The notes under the pieces were generated by a model. The model saw only the letters and a program-made list of their open reading frames with translations. It ran no database searches and had not been told where the DNA came from. The translations under genes and the position numbers were made by a program. From Oscillatoriales cyanobacterium RM2_1_1 (GTDB lineage Bacteria > Cyanobacteriota > Cyanobacteriia > Cyanobacteriales > Microcoleaceae), in NCBI GenBank assembly GCA_012033335.1, contig JAAURB010000016.1:1-64000 (forward strand): 64,000 nt of DNA, read 5' to 3'. Position 1 is the stretch's first letter; every line of letters starts with the position of its first letter. Shown here one piece after another: positions 11,339-55,206 of this stretch.

Positions 11339-12277
11339 ATGGAACAATTTTTTTTACTGCTTTTCCTGGCCCTGGGGGGATCTGCCCTGGCTGGCGGCGT
11401 TAAAGTCGTGAATCAGGGAGATGAGGCCCTGGTAGAAACCCTGGGAAAATATAACGGTCGTAAACTCAAGCCCGGATTGAGTATTGTGACTCCTTTTCTA
11501 GATCGGGTGGCCTATCGCCAGACCGTACGAGAGCAGGTTTTAGATATTCCCCCCCAGCAATGTATTACCCGCGACAACGTTTCGATTAGTGTTGATGCGG
11601 TGGTGTATTGGCGGATCATGGATCTGGAAAAAGCCTGTTATAAAGTGGCTACCTTAGTTCCAGCCATGGAAAACCTGGTGCGGACTCAGATTCGCTCTGA
11701 AATGGGAAAACTCGAACTCGATCAAACCTTCACTGCCCGGACTGAGGTGAATGAGATGCTGTTGCGGGAACTCGATATTGCTACTGATCCCTGGGGTGTG
11801 AAGGTGACCCGGGTAGAGCTCAGGGACATCTGCCCGGCGAAAGCTGTCATGGATGCCATGGAACTTCAGATGTCAGCCGAGCGCAAAAAACGGGCGGCAA
11901 TTTTGAATTCTGAAGGGGAGCGGGAGTCTGCGGTCAACTCCGCCCGAGGGAAGGCCGAAGCTCAGATCCTCGATGCCGAAGCCCATCAAAAAGCCATGAT
12001 CCTGCGGGCTCAGGCAGAGCGACAGGCCCAGGTACTCAAAGCCCATGCCACCGCAGAGGCGTTGCAGATCTTAACCAAAGCTCTGGGTAGTGAGGCGAAA
12101 GCTCAAGATGCATTGCAATTCCTACTGGCTCAACATTACATCGAGATGGGGGCCACTATTGGTAAGAGTGATAGCAGCAAGATCATGTTCATGGATCCCC
12201 GCAGTATCCCGGCAACCTTGGAGGGGATGAAAGCGATTGTGGGGGATCAGAGCTTGCAGAGCGAACATCATGGCTAA
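11339..12277 (+). CDS. SPFH/stomatin-like band 7 protein
   Basis: This 312-residue protein has an N-terminal membrane segment ([16 protein letters not shown]), then a band 7 domain (about 22-185: [37 protein letters not shown]) and an alanine/glutamate-rich helical flotillin-like part (190-250: [19 protein letters not shown]). It belongs to the QmcA/slipin group, which oligomerises in membranes and is linked to NfeD; an NfeD gene lies upstream. The ATG follows a taattcaa stretch with gagagg at 11323-11328 as a plausible ribosome-binding site. The function is scaffold-like by family, not enzymatic. Confidence 0.9.
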
Positions 12278-44879: not shown

Positions 44880-46986
44880 ATGGCTTTTATCAGAGGAACA
44901 AACGGTAATGATTTGCTGCCAGGAACCTTAGAAAATGACCAGATTTTTGGTCGCTCGGGCAATGATCAGATTACCGGTCTAGAGGGCAATGATGTTCTCA
45001 AAGGGGAGCGGGGGGAGGACTCGATCAACGGCGGCGAAGGAGACGATCAAATCTTCGGAGACAATGACAACGATCCTGAGCTCCTGGGTGGCCCAGGGAA
45101 TGATCTGCTCAACGGCGGCAGTGGCGATGATGGCTTGGATGGGGGCGACGGCAATGATACGGTGATTGGCGGCACCAACACCAGAACGAATGTCACCATT
45201 ACCATCGGGGATTCAACCGATCCAATTGGGACAATTACCATTCCCCAGATTACCGGAACCGACCAAATTCTAGGGGGAAATGGCGATGATTTACTCTTGG
45301 GGGAAGCGGGGGACGATGTCATGGATGGAGGAGCCGATAACGATACAGTGCTTGGGGGCTCGGGAAATGATCTGGCATTTGGGGGAACGGGCGATGACGA
45401 CGTTCAGGGGAGTACCGGAAACGATTTCCTCATCGGTGAAAATGGCAATGACTTTCTCAATGGCTCTACCGGTGATGATACCGTTTGGGGAGATCGCGAT
45501 CAATCTGGTGGCACCCCAGCGGATGGCAACGACAACATTTTAGTCAGTGATGGCGACGATAGAGTCCTGGCAGGAGGAGGCAACGATACGATTCTCGGGG
45601 GGAACGGCAATGACTTTCTAGATGGGGGAGATGGCACGATTATTGGCACTAGCATTGCCCTAGCCCTGAGAGATTTAGGAGGAAATGACGACATTATCGG
45701 GGGGAATGGAGACGATACGATTACCGGGGGTTTGGGAAGCGATACCCTAAACGGCGGTGGCGCTGAAGCGGGGGAAATTGACTTTCTCTTCGGTGAACAA
45801 CGCCTATCCAATGGTTCTATTGCCCGGGATAATGCTCCAGACTTATTCATCATCGCAGGGGAGAATGGTTTCTTTTACGGCGGCGGTGCTGGAGCCGATC
45901 AATACGGGGGGAACAGTTCTCCTCGGTCAGGGAGATCGAGCCATTCTGTTTGACTTTGACCTGACTCAGGGAGATACCATCCAGGTGACTGACCCCAACG
46001 TAGTGGCCAGTGTTGTCCTGGGAGGCAGCACTTTCTTATTGGTTCCTAGTGGCAGCAACTTTGAGATTGTGGCTGAACTCAGAAGTGTCAATACAAGCGC
46101 CACTGCCCTCAGAACTGCCGGTGCTCTGGTGACTCCGCCAATAGACAATAGCGGTGATGATGTGATCAATGGGACAGCGGGGGATGATGTTCTTAATGGG
46201 GGCCCCGGTAACGATCAGATTAATGGCTTAGCGGGCAATGACAACCTCCTGGGTGAGGAGGGCAATGACACCCTTGATGGCGGAGAGGATAACGATATTC
46301 TAGATGGAGGCGTTGGGGATGATCTGCTCTTAGGAGTAGAAGGTAATGATAACCTAGCGGGCAACGATGGCCTCGATACCCTCAACGGTGGCGATGGCGC
46401 AGATACCTTAAATGGCGGGAATGGAGCCGATATTCTAGATGGGGGGGCAGGGATTGATCTGTTGCTAGGGGTTGCTGGCAACGATAGTTTAACCGGCGGA
46501 ACCGACAACGATACCCTCGATGGTGGAGAGGGAAATGACACCTTGAATGCCGGAAGCGGTAATGACTTCTTGTTAGGAGCTATAGGCAATGATAGTTTGA
46601 TTGGTGGAGCCGGTCTAGATGCCTTCAATGGGGGCGGAAGTGCAACGGCTGAGCTAGATATTTATGTCAGCGAAGCGGATGGAGTGGCTGATCGGTTTAT
46701 TCTGGGTGACAGTACCGGGGCATTCTACACCGGTGGGGCAGGTGCAGTCCTGGGTGGGTTTATTACCGGTCTGGATGACCGGGCCAATATTACTGGGTTT
46801 GAACCGGGGATTGATCAGATTCAGGTCAACGCGGCTTCGGGAATTCGCCTCTTTGGCCTGAATGGGGGAGTCGATACTTTGATTACCACAAGTGCCACCG
46901 CCACCCCTCCCAATGAAGTGATGGCTGTAGTGTTGGGGGTTGCACCTGGTCTGGTCGGTGCTCCTGGAACCTTTATCGGGGCATAG
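44880..46986 (+). CDS. RTX-type calcium-binding protein (2), frameshifted
   Basis: Two overlapping frames form one protein of about 701 residues. The first frame (44880 to about 45905) is almost entirely nonapeptide units (GNDQITGLEGNDVLKG, GNDLLNGGSGDDGLDGGDGN). The second, sensible from about 45907 to 46986, continues GGTVLLGQGDRAILFDFDLT, another block of calcium-binding units, then a non-repetitive tail. They join where six G stand at 45906-45911; five would keep one frame. Expected to be exported by a type I system, with calcium folding it outside. The ATG at 44880 is supported by ggag 11 bases upstream. Confidence 0.8.
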
Positions 46987-47469: not shown

Positions 47470-48846
47470 ATGGCTAACGCGACTTTCTTTTTGCAACCAA
47501 CCGGCTCCACCGTTGACCCAATGTTTGCTAATGCTTCAGGCAACATTACATTTACCAATTACAGCCATCCCGCCTCGAACAATTTAAATGAGGGTGAATT
47601 AGAAGAATTAGTCGAAGGGGGGGTTGCTGTAGCTCTCGCCGATCTGAGCAGTACTTTTATTAATGATCCGACATTTGCCAGTTTATTTACAGAAACTTTT
47701 GGTGAGGGAGAAGACGAAGAATTCAAAATTAGGGCCAGAAGTTCCGCCGAGGTGACAGCAACCTTTGAGGTTGCGGCGGGTGAGACCTTTTCCTTTGATT
47801 TCAATTCAGATTTAAGTCTGGAGGCAACAGAAATTGAGAACCCCAATGCCGCATACATTAAAGCAAAATCCCGGACAAAATTTCTCATCCTGGACACTTC
47901 CAACCCAGACCAGCCGGAAGTCATTGACTACTTTGGTCTGAATAGCAGACTCATTCCCTCAGAACAGTTTGGCAACGTCAGGGTGGGCTCAACCAATGTT
48001 AGCCTTGTAGCCTATGAAGTCGAACAGGATGTCAACGGGAATAACGACACGGATTGGATCAATGCCTTTGCCCTTGGGAGCTATGAACACACCTTTACGG
48101 CGGATACCCAACTGAGTGTCATTCACTTCAACGAAAGTCTTACCAAGCTCCGGGGAGATACCTTGATCGATAAATTGGGCAGCGATGTCACCTATGGCAG
48201 CATCTGGAGAGACAACATTTCAGGTACCAATGGCAACGATAAAATCTATACTAGTCTGGGCAAAGATATCGTAAACGGTGGTCTGGGCAACGATACGATA
48301 GAAGGAGGAGATGACCGGGACAAACTTTTTGGCGGCAACGGTCAGGATAAAATTAACGGGGGGGAGGGCAATGATGTCGTCAGAGGTGAGCAGGGGGATG
48401 ATATCCTGCGGGGCGGAGCCGGGGATGACAGGATCATTGGTAATCAAGGCAGCGATCAACTCAATGGCGATGAGGGCAATGATACCCTCGAGGGCGGTTT
48501 GGGCAATGACAACCTCAATGGCGATGCTGGGGATGATTTGCTGATGGGCGATCGCGGCAGTGATCAGTTGATAGGGGGGGCGGGCCGTGATACCTTCCGG
48601 TTTGAGGCACCGTTGCGTCGTCGAGAGTTTGATACCATCGTTGATTTTATCCCTGGGGAGGATATTGTTGAGTTCAAAGGGTTTGGCCTGCTGAATCCAG
48701 AGGACTGGTTCAATGGCATCGTCTCTAATGGCTTAATTCAAAATACATCCGTTGGAGCGGTATTTACGGCCTCAACAGGGGGGCAAGTTCTGTTTGAAGG
48801 CTTGGGAATTAGTGATTTAAGTGGTGCTGATTTTGTATTCGTTTAG
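47470..48846 (+). CDS. RTX-type calcium-binding protein (3)
   Basis: This 458-residue protein has a unique N-terminal beta-rich domain (about 1-245: [40 protein letters not shown]), then ten or so nonapeptide units ([40 protein letters not shown]) and a C-terminal domain with [20 protein letters not shown], resembling type I secretion tails. The N-terminal domain resembles those of cyanobacterial exported adhesin-like proteins, as I recall; a role outside the cell is likely. It is on the same strand as RTX(2), after a 480-base gap, so it probably has its own promoter. Confidence 0.85.
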
Positions 48847-49218: not shown

Positions 49219-50159
49219 ACTAAGCTAATTCCTTGAGAAATAAATTTTGCTGTCCACAGACCCAACTCTGGATCGGGGATCTGGCCGCGAACTGTTTTCA
49301 TCACCTGGGTGGCCTCGGCCTGGGATTGCACCAGCCCAAATACCGTCGGCCCCGAACCCGACATCATCGCCCCCAACACCCCGGGTTGCGTCCCTATCAT
49401 CTGTCGAAGTTGCTGGATTTGAGGGTATTCCGGTAGGGCGACTTTTTCCAGATCGTTGTGCAATAGTCTGCCAATTTCTGCCCCATCCTGATGCATTACT
49501 GCGGCGACGATTGGCCCGGAATGTACCCGATCCCGGCGGCTTTGTAGATCTTGAGTTGCAGAGACGTAGGTATGACTGAATTGCTGGCGGTAGGTTTTGT
49601 AGGCCCAGGGGGTAGAAATCTGTAAATTATGGTACTTGGCCAGAACCAAATAGAGCTGATCCAGATTAGCCAGGGGTGAAAGCACTTCCCCCCGACCCGT
49701 AGCCAGGGCCGTGCCTCCCTCCAGACAAAATGGCACATCCGATCCAATTTGTCCGCCGAGTTCTTGCAGTTCCCCCTGGGTCAACCCCAATTCCCAGAGC
49801 AGATCCAGACCAACCAATACCGCTGCGGCATTGCTCGAACCCCCTGCTAGGCCGGCGGCAATCGGAATAGTTTTCTGGATTTTGATTTCGACCCCGCCAT
49901 ACCGGGCGATCGCGTGGGGAAATTGTTCTGCCATTAAAGCGGCAGCCCGGTAGGCCAGATTATTTTGGTTGTCAGGCACTCCCGGGTGATCGCACTTGAT
50001 GCTGATGGCATCAATTTCAATGCTACTGATCTCGATTTTGTCCGCCAGACTGATGGCTTGTAGCACCATGACCAGTTCATGGTAGCCATCCGGGCGATCG
50101 CCAATAATTTCCAGATACAGATTGATTTTGGCGGGGGCTACTAGAGAATAAGATCGCAT
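49215..50159 (-). CDS. ispE: 4-diphosphocytidyl-2-C-methylerythritol kinase
   Basis: IspE phosphorylates CDP-ME in the non-mevalonate isoprenoid pathway that feeds carotenoids, chlorophyll and quinones. The GHMP-kinase motifs are visible: APAKINLYLEIIGDRPDGYH at the start, the ATP loop PIAAGLAGGSSNAAAVL and the late AMMSGSGPTVFGL. At 314 residues it is full length. It overlaps rsmA by 19 bases upstream and DUF3082 by 4 bases downstream. Confidence 0.96.
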   Translation of the reverse strand: MRSYSLVAPAKINLYLEIIGDRPDGYHELVMVLQAISLADKIEISSIEIDAISIKCDHPGVPDNQNNLAYRAAALMAEQFPHAIARYGGVEIKIQKTIPIAAGLAGGSSNAAAVLVGLDLLWELGLTQGELQELGGQIGSDVPFCLEGGTALATGRGEVLSPLANLDQLYLVLAKYHNLQISTPWAYKTYRQQFSHTYVSATQDLQSRRDRVHSGPIVAAVMHQDGAEIGRLLHNDLEKVALPEYPQIQQLRQMIGTQPGVLGAMMSGSGPTVFGLVQSQAEATQVMKTVRGQIPDPELGLWTAKFISQGISLV

Positions 50160-50974
50160 TTTTGCTCCAGACGATTACTTAGATCGATCCATTGTTCAAT
50201 ACTTAGATCTTCAGCTCGAACCTGGGGGTTAATTTCTAATTGTTCCAGGGTTTGGGTCAAATCCTGTCGTTCCATCACACTTTTTAAATTATTCCGTAAC
50301 ATTTTGCGCTTACTGGAAAACCCTAATTTGACCAAGGTTTCTAGATAGCGAGGATTTTCCGCCGGGGGTTGCTGGGGTCGGGGACAGAGACGAATCACCG
50401 CCGAATCCACCTTAGGGGGAGGTTGAAAGCAGCGGGCGGGCACATCACAAATCCATTCACAATTGGCCCGGTATTGCACCCGAACCGACAGGGCTCCAAA
50501 GGCTCTAGAGCCGGATTGAGCTACCAAACGCTGGGCGACTTCTTTTTGCACCAGTAGGACAATCAACTCGAAGGGATCAGGGCGCGGTGTAGAGATCGTT
50601 CCCAGAAGTTGCTCCAGAATTGGCCCAGTAATATTGTAGGGAATATTGGCGACAACTTTGTTGGGGGGCCAGAACCGGGGAAAATCAGCTAATTGATTGG
50701 CTAAATCCAGGGTGAGGATATCTCCCTGGAGCAGCAAAAAGTTCTCCGCCGCCGCAAATTTTTGAGTCAAACTCTGGCATAAGTCCCGGTCAATTTCTAC
50801 TCCTACCACCGCCTCAGCCCCCTGAATCAACCGGGTCGTTAATACTCCCGTACCGGGGCCAATCTCCAAAATCCGATCCCCCAGCCCAATCTGGGCGGCG
50901 GTGATGATCCGATCCAAGGTGGGGGGATGGCGCAGCCAGTGCTGGGCAAATTGTTTGCGGGGTTGGGGGGTCAT
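50141..50974 (-). CDS. rsmA: 16S rRNA dimethyladenosine transferase
   Basis: RsmA (KsgA) dimethylates two adjacent adenosines near the 3' end of 16S rRNA. The class I methyltransferase motifs are ILEIGPGTGVLTTRLI, the catalytic NIPYNITGPILEQL and ADNFLLLQGDIL-like motif II (FLLLQGDILTLDL). At 277 residues it is typical. It is the first gene of the ispE operon, starting 10 bases downstream of the hydrolase-fusion gene's stop. Confidence 0.96.
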   Translation of the reverse strand: MTPQPRKQFAQHWLRHPPTLDRIITAAQIGLGDRILEIGPGTGVLTTRLIQGAEAVVGVEIDRDLCQSLTQKFAAAENFLLLQGDILTLDLANQLADFPRFWPPNKVVANIPYNITGPILEQLLGTISTPRPDPFELIVLLVQKEVAQRLVAQSGSRAFGALSVRVQYRANCEWICDVPARCFQPPPKVDSAVIRLCPRPQQPPAENPRYLETLVKLGFSSKRKMLRNNLKSVMERQDLTQTLEQLEINPQVRAEDLSIEQWIDLSNRLEQKCDLIL

Positions 50975-50983
50975 GGTTCAAGT

Positions 50984-53509
50984 TTAGCGGTTCAGGCAGG
51001 AGTCCAGGTTCACCAGGGAATAGGGAAAAGCGTAGGAAAACCACCGTGTCCAGATATATTCGGCTTCATTGCTGTTGACAAAGGAATTCACAATTCTGCG
51101 CCATTGCGGATCCCCTGATGGTAGGGCCAATCCATAGAAGTCACAGGTGAGGGGATCCTCTGGAACTAGAGTATAGTTCTCCAGGGGCAGCTTTTGCCGG
51201 AAAAGCTCACCAATGGTCAAAACCCCATCATTGGCAAAGGCTTCAATTTGGTCATTTTCTACCGCATTCACCCCGGATGTGATGGCATTATCGCCGCGAA
51301 AAAAGACTTTATTGGCTTGGGGATATTGTTGTTTTAAAAACTGTTCTGTAGAAGAATTGCGAATCACGCCAGTGGTGACATCTGTTAGATTGCTATTGAG
51401 ATCAATATTACTTTCGTTAACAATCTTTGTTAAAAATTGAGCCCCGGTAATAAAGAAAGATTCTGAGAATGTGATTCCAGGATTATTTCGTTGAATGGTA
51501 TTAGGGCCACACTCTAACTGAGCCGTTTGACTTCGCACTAACTGATAGCGGGTATCGATGGTTGAAGGAAAAACAATTAATTCAAGCTCCACCGGAAGAC
51601 CTAGGGTTTGAGTTAAATAATCTTTGAATCCATCCATTAATTCTGTGCAATATCCCTGGAGTTGTTGCTCTTCATCCAAATAGCCAAAGGGAACTGCATC
51701 CCGACGAATGGCCACTTTCAAGACTCCAGTTCGAATCACTTCCTCCAGAATATTCTGAGCCGGGAGTTGGGGAGTCGTGGCCACCGGGGGTGGATTCGGG
51801 GGAATGGGGGAAGGTTTACCATAGGCCGTTTCTAACTGTGCTAATGTCAGAGACCGAATCAGACTAACCTGTAAACCGGGTTGCTTGAGGGATTCATTGT
51901 AGGAGGCCGAAAGATAGGGCAAATAGGCTTTGTCTCCCCGCAAATAAGCATTAAAAAAAGCCACACTCAAGCCAAAGAAATAGGGGCGACCCAGGTCATA
52001 GTTGTCCCCAATAATAAACTTAGGAACTCCTTCGATCCCTTGGGTATCGGATTGAATGCTGGCGGTAAAATGGGTGCCGGGGTCAAGCAAGGCAAAATAT
52101 TTTTCAGGAGCCCCCAGGGTAATAAACGCATTCACCTGTTCCTGCACCATGGGAGTGACAATATCCTGACTCCCGGCCACAATTAGAGTGGGAATTTTCA
52201 CCTGACCCATGCCCTGGGAGCCGTAGATGGCGCTGGTTAAGGGATGGGCGGCGATCGCCGCCTTGATTCGAGGATCCCAAAAATCATAGTCAATCGGCGG
52301 CAAATATACCGCCCGACATTGCAAGAGCAGGGAAACATTCAGGGTAAAATTATCAGCCCGGCAAATCTGACTGAGTTCTTCCGGAATGATTTCAGCCCCC
52401 GCTAAAGCCAGAGCGGTAGTCGCCCCAAAGGAGTTGCCAACCACTCCAATTTGATCCAGATTAATGCGATTTTTGAATTCTGGATCGGTCTTGACCAATC
52501 CTTCTAAATAATCAATAAACCGAGAAATATCATTGGGACGGCTGACATATTCAATCGGACTGAGTAAGGAATCTACGTCTCCCCGGAGGAAAGATTGGCG
52601 ATATCCCAGGTTGCTGCCAATATGTTCAGGAATGGCGACAGCAAATCCATGGGATGCCAGGTGTTGCGCTTGGTTATTGTTGCCGCGATAGGCCCCAAAT
52701 CCGTGGCTGGAAATAATCAGGGGAGCCGGTTCTGATAACCCATCCGGCAGATAAACATCCACATCAAGCTGATAGGAACCCGTCAGCCCAGTTCCGGTTT
52801 GGCGGAGATCCTGAACTGTAAAACTAATGGTTCTCTTGGTAAACGTGTAAGGGCCAGGTTGTTGCAGATTCGGCAGCCGCGAGAAGTCCATTTTCGGCTC
52901 AACCGCCGCCTCTCCCATTGCCTCAGCCTGAATTTCCTGGATCACGACCCGGCGATACTCCAGCAGGGCCGGAATTTCCTGGGCCGCTTGGGCAATCAAG
53001 CGTCCATCAATCCGCAGGGTTTTGGCAGGAAATTGGCGGATGACATTGATAATACTAAAGCCTTCGGGATCCGCTGCTGCTGCCACTAATGCTGTCTTCA
53101 GGGCCTCCGCTCCGTTGACTCCCTGATCAGTTTGGATCAGTTGACCAATGCGCCGCATCACGACCCGGCCAATTGGCATATTCACCACCCGACTGACAGT
53201 AACCGGATCAAAGTCAAATTTTCGTTGGGAAATTTGCCGCAACTGTTCTAGATTTTGACGGCCAATCAGTTGGGAATAAGCTCCAAAGTCACGGGTAATC
53301 TTACCTTGTTTGACGAAGGTTTCTAAGGCATCAACGGATAGATAAACTTCAGCCGGTGGATAGGAAAGAATAATTTCTTCTGCCCCCAAGACAGGAGTTT
53401 TTATAGGAAAGAAAAAAATAGAAATTGAACTGGAAATTAAACCAAAAATTAATCTGGTAATCACCCCCTGAATCGGTTTCCGCAAACCCAACTCGGACAA
53501 ATGGTTCAT
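50984..53509 (-). CDS. DUF1400 alpha/beta hydrolase fused to a solute-binding domain
   Basis: This 841-residue protein has a signal peptide (about 1-43), a DUF1400 region (44-175), an alpha/beta hydrolase (245-540) with serine S360 in GVVGNSFGATTALAL, aspartate near 449 (IVAGSQDIVTP) and histidine near 480 (LDPGTHFTAS), a proline-rich linker (565-585), and a C-terminal family 3 periplasmic binding domain (588-835: GVLKVAIRRDAVPFGYLDEE, GYCTELMDGFKDYLTQTLGL, VPEDPLTCDFYGLALPSGDP). DUF1400 hydrolases are normally alone, as in the next gene upstream. The fusion suggests an exported enzyme that captures its substrate or product, or a sensor. No frame break lies at the junction, so I take the fusion as real. 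Confidence 0.85.
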   Translation of the reverse strand: MNHLSELGLRKPIQGVITRLIFGLISSSISIFFFPIKTPVLGAEEIILSYPPAEVYLSVDALETFVKQGKITRDFGAYSQLIGRQNLEQLRQISQRKFDFDPVTVSRVVNMPIGRVVMRRIGQLIQTDQGVNGAEALKTALVAAAADPEGFSIINVIRQFPAKTLRIDGRLIAQAAQEIPALLEYRRVVIQEIQAEAMGEAAVEPKMDFSRLPNLQQPGPYTFTKRTISFTVQDLRQTGTGLTGSYQLDVDVYLPDGLSEPAPLIISSHGFGAYRGNNNQAQHLASHGFAVAIPEHIGSNLGYRQSFLRGDVDSLLSPIEYVSRPNDISRFIDYLEGLVKTDPEFKNRINLDQIGVVGNSFGATTALALAGAEIIPEELSQICRADNFTLNVSLLLQCRAVYLPPIDYDFWDPRIKAAIAAHPLTSAIYGSQGMGQVKIPTLIVAGSQDIVTPMVQEQVNAFITLGAPEKYFALLDPGTHFTASIQSDTQGIEGVPKFIIGDNYDLGRPYFFGLSVAFFNAYLRGDKAYLPYLSASYNESLKQPGLQVSLIRSLTLAQLETAYGKPSPIPPNPPPVATTPQLPAQNILEEVIRTGVLKVAIRRDAVPFGYLDEEQQLQGYCTELMDGFKDYLTQTLGLPVELELIVFPSTIDTRYQLVRSQTAQLECGPNTIQRNNPGITFSESFFITGAQFLTKIVNESNIDLNSNLTDVTTGVIRNSSTEQFLKQQYPQANKVFFRGDNAITSGVNAVENDQIEAFANDGVLTIGELFRQKLPLENYTLVPEDPLTCDFYGLALPSGDPQWRRIVNSFVNSNEAEYIWTRWFSYAFPYSLVNLDSCLNR

Positions 53510-53526
53510 AGTAGAATGCCCTAGAC

Positions 53527-55206
53527 CTAGTTTTTAATTCTACCAAATGCCTCGGCAATTTGTTGATCAGTTAATGATTGAGAAAAACTCAAACTATAGG
53601 AAGGTTGACTGATGTATTGGCCGTAGGAAGCCCTGAGATAGGGGCGGTAACTAGAATTCCCAGCCGTATAAACCTGGAAAAAAGCCAGACCCAGGGCATT
53701 CATGTAGGATTCAACGATGGGAGTGTCCCGATTCACCAATTGATTGAGGGAGGTTTCATCTAGGGTTTTAACGGTGCCTAAAGCCTCAAGATTCAATTCT
53801 AAATGGTCACTGCCCGCCACCAGGGCCAGATATTTTTCAGCAGAACCCAGGGCTACAAAGGAATTGGCTTGCTCTAGGACGAATGGAGTCAGGCGATCGC
53901 GACTGCCAGCTCCCCACAGCACAGGGATGGGAATCTGACTCAAGCTAGATTGACCTAAAATCGTACTGCTCACCGGATCAAGGGCAAACACCGCAGTAAT
54001 TCTCCGATCCTTCAAATTATTCTGGGGTTCTGACAGGTTCAAAGCCTGACATTGAAAAAAGTAGGACAGATTCAGCCATTCAACTCTGGGTTCCGAAGAC
54101 GGTTGGCAGGCTTGGGCTAGGTGGGAAAAGTCCAGGGGTGCCCCCGCCAACACCAGAGCCGTGTAAGCCCCAAAGGATTGACCGGCTATCCCCACCTGTT
54201 GCAGGTTGAGTTTTCCCTGAAACTGAGTTAAGTTAATTTGTTCTAGTTGATCGAGAACAAAACTGATATCCTGAGGCCGATCAATAAATTCCTCAACCTC
54301 AAAGAAATTGTCGGCTTGGCCCTTCAAGAAATCCTCTAGTTTTTGAAAATTACTTCCCGGATGTTGAACGGTCACCACTGCAAATCCGTGGGAAGCTAGA
54401 TGAGTAATTAAACTTTGCCAACCCTGGCGGGTCGCCCCCAACCCTGGAGAAACGATGATCACTGGAATTGATGGCTGTTCCAGTCGAGATTTTGCCAGAT
54501 ATAGATCAGCGGTAAGGGTTCGCCGCCGCTGCGGATCCTCTAATATTAATGTCTCCTGAGATACCTCAAACTCCCCCGGTTGCCTCAGATCTAACAGTTG
54601 AGAAAAGTCAATTTCAGGTTCCTGGATCGCCTGGTTGAGGGTTAACTGCTCCAGGGTTTGCACCAGGGTTTGAGTAGCTTGATTGGTGATTTTAATCCCA
54701 TCAATCAATTCTAGAATCCTGGGGGTATTGAGTTGAATATCACCGGGAAATTGACGGATTGAATCAATCAAAGCCAAGCCTTCCGGTTGGGCTGCGGATT
54801 GGATTAAGGCCGCTTGAATGGCCCCTGCCCCATTGCCTCCGGATTCAGTTTGGATCAATTCTCCCAGGTTGATCAGTAGTCTTTCCCCCAAACCGGTCTG
54901 AAAAAAATTCGCTAACTGTTCGGGTTGCAGGTTGAAACGAGCCTGGGTTAGGGTTTGAATTACTCGGCGGAAATGGGCTGAATCTTCTGAGGTCAGACTC
55001 TCTAAAATGCGGCGATATGGAGCCAACTCTGGATTGATCGTTCCAGTTTCCAGATAATGGGTCACAGCGGCAACGGGAATAGAAATCCGGCCTGAGCCAT
55101 ATTGAAGATAAATTCGGTCTGCGGCCTCACCTGAAATAGAGACAAGACAACCGCACAAACCGCTGAGGATAGGGATCAAAAACTGAATGACTGAAGAAAA
55201 TTTCAT
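53527..55206 (-). CDS. DUF1400 alpha/beta hydrolase
   Basis: This 559-residue paralog has a signal peptide (1-28, ends ISGEAA), the DUF1400 region (29-160) and an alpha/beta hydrolase with S344 in GIAGQSFGAYTALVLAGAPL, DRL near 460 (WGAGSRDRLTPF) and a histidine in VAGSDHLELN. It lacks the solute-binding part of the neighbouring fusion. Only 17 bases separate it from the fusion gene, so the two form one transcript. The substrate is unknown; the family includes esterase or lipase-like enzymes. Confidence 0.87.
   Translation of the reverse strand: MKFSSVIQFLIPILSGLCGCLVSISGEAADRIYLQYGSGRISIPVAAVTHYLETGTINPELAPYRRILESLTSEDSAHFRRVIQTLTQARFNLQPEQLANFFQTGLGERLLINLGELIQTESGGNGAGAIQAALIQSAAQPEGLALIDSIRQFPGDIQLNTPRILELIDGIKITNQATQTLVQTLEQLTLNQAIQEPEIDFSQLLDLRQPGEFEVSQETLILEDPQRRRTLTADLYLAKSRLEQPSIPVIIVSPGLGATRQGWQSLITHLASHGFAVVTVQHPGSNFQKLEDFLKGQADNFFEVEEFIDRPQDISFVLDQLEQINLTQFQGKLNLQQVGIAGQSFGAYTALVLAGAPLDFSHLAQACQPSSEPRVEWLNLSYFFQCQALNLSEPQNNLKDRRITAVFALDPVSSTILGQSSLSQIPIPVLWGAGSRDRLTPFVLEQANSFVALGSAEKYLALVAGSDHLELNLEALGTVKTLDETSLNQLVNRDTPIVESYMNALGLAFFQVYTAGNSSYRPYLRASYGQYISQPSYSLSFSQSLTDQQIAEAFGRIKN

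Follow-up and report, generated by a model that had tools for sequence, protein, structure and literature searches.

A DUF1400 hydrolase joined to a solute-binding domain in many cyanobacteria: a candidate ligand-controlled exported esterase

We found a cyanobacterial gene that encodes, in one chain, a DUF1400 alpha/beta hydrolase predicted to be exported and a family 3 solute-binding domain (SBP), and this fusion is real, old and conserved in many cyanobacteria. The gene lies in the window (the whole stretch of DNA that was analysed, 64,000 nucleotides of Oscillatoriales cyanobacterium RM2_1_1), and its architecture suggests that a small extracellular molecule controls the enzyme or feeds it. 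Our literature search for a DUF1400 hydrolase fused to an SBP returned nothing relevant, and the passages on DUF1400 available to us describe a domain or hydrolase of unknown function and, within those passages, do not mention a binding domain. Each domain was known before, any domain scan would show the fusion, and there is precedent for the concept. The gene and its parts are as follows.

50984..53509, minus strand: gene for the 841-aa fusion of a predicted exported DUF1400 alpha/beta hydrolase with a family 3 SBP (open reading frame, Pfam, orthologues)
53381..53509, minus strand: signal sequence, residues 1-43 (sequence reading and alignment)
53006..53383, minus strand: DUF1400 domain, residues 43-168 (Pfam PF07176, E 9e-37)
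51848..52879, minus strand: alpha/beta hydrolase, residues 211-554, PETase/cutinase fold (structure alignment of the predicted model)
51752..51820, minus strand: proline-rich linker, residues 564-586 (near-constant length in the fusion family)
50996..51751, minus strand: family 3 solute-binding domain, GltI-like, residues 587-838 (Pfam PF00497, profile match, Foldseek)

The frame runs from ATG to TAA with no internal stop, and an earlier note on this DNA had correctly read it, coordinates included, as one continuous frame from DUF1400 hydrolase to SBP. The domain order is signal sequence, DUF1400, alpha/beta hydrolase, short linker and SBP, and the proline-rich nature of the linker, also claimed in that note, was confirmed. 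PF07176 scored 126.6 bits against a gathering score of 23.4, and SBP_bac_3 (PF00497) was found at residues 597-817 (E 1.5e-7; 31.7 bits versus a cut-off of 26.4). Alpha/beta hydrolase models exceeded their Pfam cut-offs between residues 247 and 490 (PF12740, 9.7e-8; PF03403, 9.9e-8; PF00561, 4e-6); the PET hydrolase-like PF12740 reached 32.2 bits against a gathering score of 28, with its best stretch at 413-490 only.

The N-terminal signal sequence, in which A43 is invariant across the 50-row fusion alignment, supports export of the protein to the periplasm or by secretion. E44 is nearly invariant, and the signal peptide is probably cut after A43. Six cysteines (C383, C398, C621, C667, C789 and C838) are invariant in the same alignment, consistent with an oxidising compartment.

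We searched 293 genomes of the order for the SBP part. At least 31 of them carry it in an open frame of 700-893 aa, and others carry it in frames of about 290 aa; the fusion is a widespread cyanobacterial family and not peculiar to RM2_1_1. Of the fused loci, 20 were fetched, and each encodes a full-length orthologue whose domains stand in the same order, with 36-49% identity across some 800 residues. When GTDB species genomes were scanned with a profile, 80 named loci emerged (a single-sequence scan of contigs gave none), and about 55 of these hold the fusion, in some 20 named cyanobacterial genera. These include Symploca, Okeania, Moorena, Hydrocoleum, Cyanothece, Xenococcus, Hyella, Pleurocapsa, Geitlerinema, Baaleninema, Halomicronema, Nodosilinea, Phormidium, Leptolyngbya, Pantanalinema, Scytolyngbya and Chroococcus, and genomes of other orders of the class carry it as well. 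The orthologue of Lyngbya aestuarii is 60% identical in both halves. Some genomes have three to five copies, and the fused form is continuous in genomes of one or two contigs such as G099 and G103. In a plasmid search, coverage of the query reached 80% in no record, and the best matches were unfused relatives, e.g. in Picosynechococcus PCC 7002.

The hydrolase half has a G-x-S-x-G nucleophile elbow followed by Asp and His, in the order of serine alpha/beta hydrolases. The three triad residues, which the earlier note had already listed, are conserved among 50 fusions.

52430..52432, minus strand: catalytic serine S360 in GNSFG (S in 49/50 fusions)
52163..52165, minus strand: catalytic aspartate D449 (invariant in 50/50)
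52070..52072, minus strand: catalytic histidine H480 (invariant in 50/50)

The sole fusion of the 50 with the nucleophile serine changed is L077:7261-9780 (GHFLG).

An AlphaFold2 model of the fusion protein, built on 50 rows, had a mean pLDDT of 84.4 and a pTM of 0.72. Its residues 210-554 superpose on PETases and cutinases (to PETase, VIA-align Z 27 with an rmsd of 2.4 Å across 247 residues and 22% identity), so that the protein is predicted to have the alpha/beta hydrolase fold. It shares this catalytic fold and triad with the PETase/cutinase/PAF-acetylhydrolase group, whereas the DUF1400 domain in front and the SBP behind set it apart, and identity to the group is 19-24%. The hydrolase is presumably an esterase. 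Modelled alone (pLDDT 82.4), DUF1400 matched no fold in the PDB, with no Foldseek match below E 0.27 and no VIA-align match above Z 2.4; a missing match for a predicted model does not prove a new fold. The closest relatives are the cyanobacterial DUF1400 alpha/beta hydrolases (PF07176), with the same N-terminal domain and hydrolase, of which the RM2_1_1 genome has eight matches in all. Full-length unfused members have about 545-580 aa and end where the linker begins, whereas the fused ones fall into a clade of their own.

A profile of 21 fused SBPs found the GltI/DEBP structures 2VHA/2IA4 at E 3e-31, and the modelled SBP matched AncCDT-1 and GltI/DEBP in Foldseek (TM by target mostly 0.69-0.83). 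By profile and predicted structure, the domain is closest to the glutamate/aspartate-binding protein GltI. It is not a member of the GltI family as defined by NCBIfam (PRK10797, NF008063), for which the fusion protein scored 67.1 bits against a cut-off of 375. The GrrP/GrrM peptide system was considered and rejected: the SBP reached 58.7-61.8 bits for GrrP (TIGR04262; NCBIfam cut-off 190), and the best score for the GrrM radical SAM enzyme in the RM2_1_1 genome was 11.1 bits against 310. GrrP is itself an orphan periplasmic protein and, like the fused SBP, an orphan cyanobacterial SBP relative.

Pocket residues were read from an alignment of 57 fused SBP domains with GltI, whose R24, R75, T92, R97 and D182 act in ligand binding. 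Four of them have equivalents in nearly all fused domains.

51704..51706, minus strand: R602, equivalent to GltI R24 (kept in 56/57 fused domains)
51548..51550, minus strand: R654, equivalent to GltI R75 (kept in 57/57)
51497..51499, minus strand: T671, equivalent to GltI T92 (T or S in 57/57)
51227..51229, minus strand: D761, equivalent to GltI D182 (kept in 55/57)

Other positions differ. The position of GltI R97 is lost in the fused SBPs, where the loop is shortened and D or N stands instead. The nearby R673 is present in 43/57 fused domains and is Q in the RM2_1_1 protein; the GltI H164 position (743) is R in 40/57 and I in RM2_1_1. GltI S27 and S72 correspond to A605 and I651, position 651 being mostly L in relatives. 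In GltI, S27 and S72 touch the glutamate side chain, and changing them to A and P shifts the protein to aspartate (PMC10942590). The binding domain, which the earlier note had called complete-looking, is therefore complete in fold, but the alpha-carboxylate arginine of canonical amino-acid SBPs (GltI R97, LAO R77) is not conserved in the fused SBPs. The pocket appears to be amino-acid-like, retained but changed. Since the equivalents of R24, R75, T92 and D182 are kept and S27, S72, R97 and, in the RM2_1_1 protein, H164 are lost, the ligand is probably amino-acid-like and need not be glutamate. GltI/DEBP (2VHA, 2IA4) thus has the fold and four pocket residues in common with the fused SBP; in contrast, the conserved C621, C789 and C838 are absent from GltI, and the fused SBP has no cognate permease adjoining.

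An SBP on an envelope enzyme has its best-documented precedent in MltF, whose N-terminal regulatory domain has the family 3 SBP fold. Muropeptides on this regulatory domain open the catalytic site of MltF (PMC10746161). By analogy with this pairing of an SBP-type domain and a lytic transglycosylase, we favour, at somewhat under even confidence, a ligand-controlled exported serine esterase in which closure of the SBP alters access to the hydrolase. The catalytic unit (DUF1400 plus the PETase/cutinase-type hydrolase) would be permanently tied to a Venus-flytrap domain, and a small amino-acid-like acid or peptide would bind in its cleft. On binding, the two lobes would close; this closure, through the short linker of fixed length, would change access to the hydrolase active site, and the enzyme would thereby be switched by the environment or by its own product. 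The ligand, the enzymatic activity, the export route and, above all, the allosteric coupling are what we infer here.

MltF is a works-like model, as an envelope enzyme with a fused regulatory domain that binds a ligand. It differs in that its catalytic domain is unrelated, its domain order is the reverse and its ligand is a muropeptide; Pfam gave no match to the SLT lytic transglycosylase domain of MltF in the fusion protein. Engineered chimaeras of the iGluSnFR type, in which GltI is joined to a reporter and binding changes the output, are also akin to the fusion, but they are man-made and their output is a fluorescent protein, whereas the output here would be an enzyme.

The linker is near constant in length. 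The spacing from L554 to P568 is 14.0 ± 0 residues and that from P568 to P607 is 39.1 ± 0.5 (50 rows); in contrast, the length of some hydrolase loops differs by as much as tens of residues. Linker residues 577-583 have a pLDDT under 50, and the fixed length may be only a folding constraint. Counting against gating is a pocket without the R97 equivalent, S27 and S72, to which the RM2_1_1 protein adds the lack of R at 673 and 743.

The earlier note had seen two possibilities: that the enzyme is exported and holds its ligand, or that the protein is a two-part sensor. Export and ligand binding gained support from the signal sequence and the GltI residues; a signal-transduction sensor did not, no signalling partner having been found, and ligand control of the enzyme itself fits better. 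We consider it possible, with less assurance than for gating of the RM2_1_1 protein, that the family is an undescribed and widespread class of exported esterases in cyanobacteria, gated by an amino-acid-like ligand from outside the cell. Such a chain would sense a nutrient or cell-wall fragment and switch its own hydrolase on or off, and genomes with many copies would cover several ligand types. The SBP ligand would be a direct handle on what the DUF1400 enzyme responds to or makes. If ligand-gated, the fusion would be nature's equivalent of engineered sensor chimaeras and would extend the MltF principle to a second case, on an unrelated catalytic fold.

The genes on either side of the fusion are the following.

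53527..55206, minus strand: upstream paralogue, DUF1400 hydrolase without SBP, 559 aa (Pfam, tree)
50141..50974, minus strand: RsmA/KsgA-like gene downstream, 9-base gap (read from sequence)

The upstream gene is the unfused DUF1400 hydrolase that the earlier note had placed 17 bases away; the gap is 53510-53526, and Pfam found no SBP in its product. Lyngbya aestuarii BL J has the same pair, unfused hydrolase then fusion, 67 nt apart, and in Okeania a related unfused gene is near the fusion. We take the downstream gene to be that of the 16S rRNA dimethyladenosine transferase RsmA/KsgA; it is possibly co-transcribed with the fusion gene, and it is not conserved as a neighbour among relatives. 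Downstream of the RM2_1_1 fusion, genes read as rsmA and ispE, and in Lyngbya there are a PlsY/PPDK-type gene and a GDSL lipase; hence, the operon context is not conserved. The Lyngbya aestuarii gene directly after the fusion (L064:9849-12770) encodes a 973-aa protein that joins a glycerol-3-phosphate acyltransferase domain to PPDK-type ATP-binding and PEP-utiliser domains. Also in the window, 45757-46986 and 47470-48846 encode two adjacent proteins rich in GGxGxD-type repeats, which from the sequence read as the calcium-binding RTX kind. Promoter-like and terminator-like sites were no commoner than in shuffles.

Clustering of flanking genes gave, in place of a conserved operon partner, only DUF1400 paralogues and common families. 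An AI-2E (PF01594) transporter was tried as partner and rejected, being beside some SBP or fusion genes and absent at other loci. Its gene lies just upstream of the stand-alone SBP in Microcystis and Crocosphaera and of the fusion in Phormidium and Nodosilinea.

L120:7882-8919, L131:7874-8905, L118:6086-7171 and L143:844-1278: AI-2E family transporter genes (four genera)

Next in rank to ligand gating, and rather unlikely, is capture with hand-off, in which the hydrolase would cleave an ester or amide outside the cell and the SBP would trap the amino-acid-like product for a separately encoded ABC permease. The SBP is nearest to a transport SBP, enzyme and product binder on one chain would be economical, and of the genes in RM2_1_1 (four SBP_bac_3 proteins and two polar amino-acid permease genes, the latter at C93) the permeases could in principle be used by such an SBP. 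However, these permease genes already adjoin an SBP of their own, a different one, and a large fused enzyme may hinder docking. Neither ABC permease nor ATPase genes were seen beside the RM2_1_1 fusion or any listed relative, as neighbourhoods were read and selected neighbours scanned with hmmscan.

We also think it unlikely that the SBP-fold domain serves targeting, i.e. that it would bind an amino-acid-containing polymer or surface (peptidoglycan peptide, protein or extracellular matrix) and keep the hydrolase near its substrate with no switching. The regulatory domain of MltF does bind cell-wall peptides (PMC10746161), and the up to five fusion paralogues in a single genome (G068), with pocket residues differing between groups, would suit different targets. 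Nevertheless, the conserved SBP residues include the small-ligand pocket of GltI, and no surface patch is evident.

It is more improbable still that the SBP is a relic or has changed its job, no longer binding a ligand or having become an enzyme, and only stabilises the hydrolase. Cyclohexadienyl dehydratase is an SBP fold turned enzyme, and the top Foldseek matches include SBP folds of the AncCDT/cyclohexadienyl dehydratase line; in addition, the canonical carboxylate arginine is missing and some pocket changes are specific to the RM2_1_1 protein. Against this stand the four GltI pocket equivalents, each kept in at least 55 of the 57 fused domains, and an SBP dN/dS of 0.08-0.37. For close pairs dN/dS was 0.03-0.37 in each of the three parts, and by this measure all three are under purifying selection.

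Both trees fit one origin of the fusion. In the SBP tree the fused domains group together, with a minimum of two label changes, one being the broken L109. In the hydrolase tree the fused sequences make up a single group, set against the full-length unfused paralogues with a support of 99; this group also contains one unfused row (OWNL006), which is truncated and has a long branch. Hence, the simplest reading of the trees is a single old fusion followed by descent and duplication. Stand-alone SBP genes of about 285-290 aa exist in Microcystis, Crocosphaera, Pleurocapsa and others, and we favour the view that the SBP half came from an orphan lineage of such amino-acid-type binding proteins in cyanobacteria.

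The stand-alone genes of about 285 aa in other cyanobacteria might suggest an assembly or annotation artefact, a stop lost between two genes, but this is scarcely credible and is refuted by orthologues unbroken in dozens of independent assemblies, and the stand-alone SBPs have their own signal sequences and, except at L109 and L129, no DUF1400 gene in the fetched flanks. The earlier note had held that the fusion would be an artefact if the halves proved to be separate genes elsewhere and read mapping showed a lost stop at the junction; no locus examined has two intact halves as neighbouring separate genes, and the fusion survives.

L109 and L129, both from metagenome bins, appear to be broken fusion genes. 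At L109:6123-7495, from a Leptolyngbyaceae bin, DUF1400 runs nearly straight into the SBP and the hydrolase core is absent. At L151:2087-5786 (G064) the fusion is in two frames: about 1.1 kb of additional DNA, which looks like an insertion, interrupts it immediately before the nucleophile region. In Okeania, the stretch between the fusion and an unfused DUF1400 gene downstream of it holds SBP-tail fragments (L067:7716-7925; L072:10097-10267 and 12093-12248) and a transposase-like gene. In Okeania sp. SIO1I7 (L071:9393-10819) the 3' third of the fusion gene stands in tandem in four copies, mostly 94-100% alike and spaced by 373-381 bases, of which 373 is not a multiple of three; the repeat is near a contig end and may be an assembly effect.
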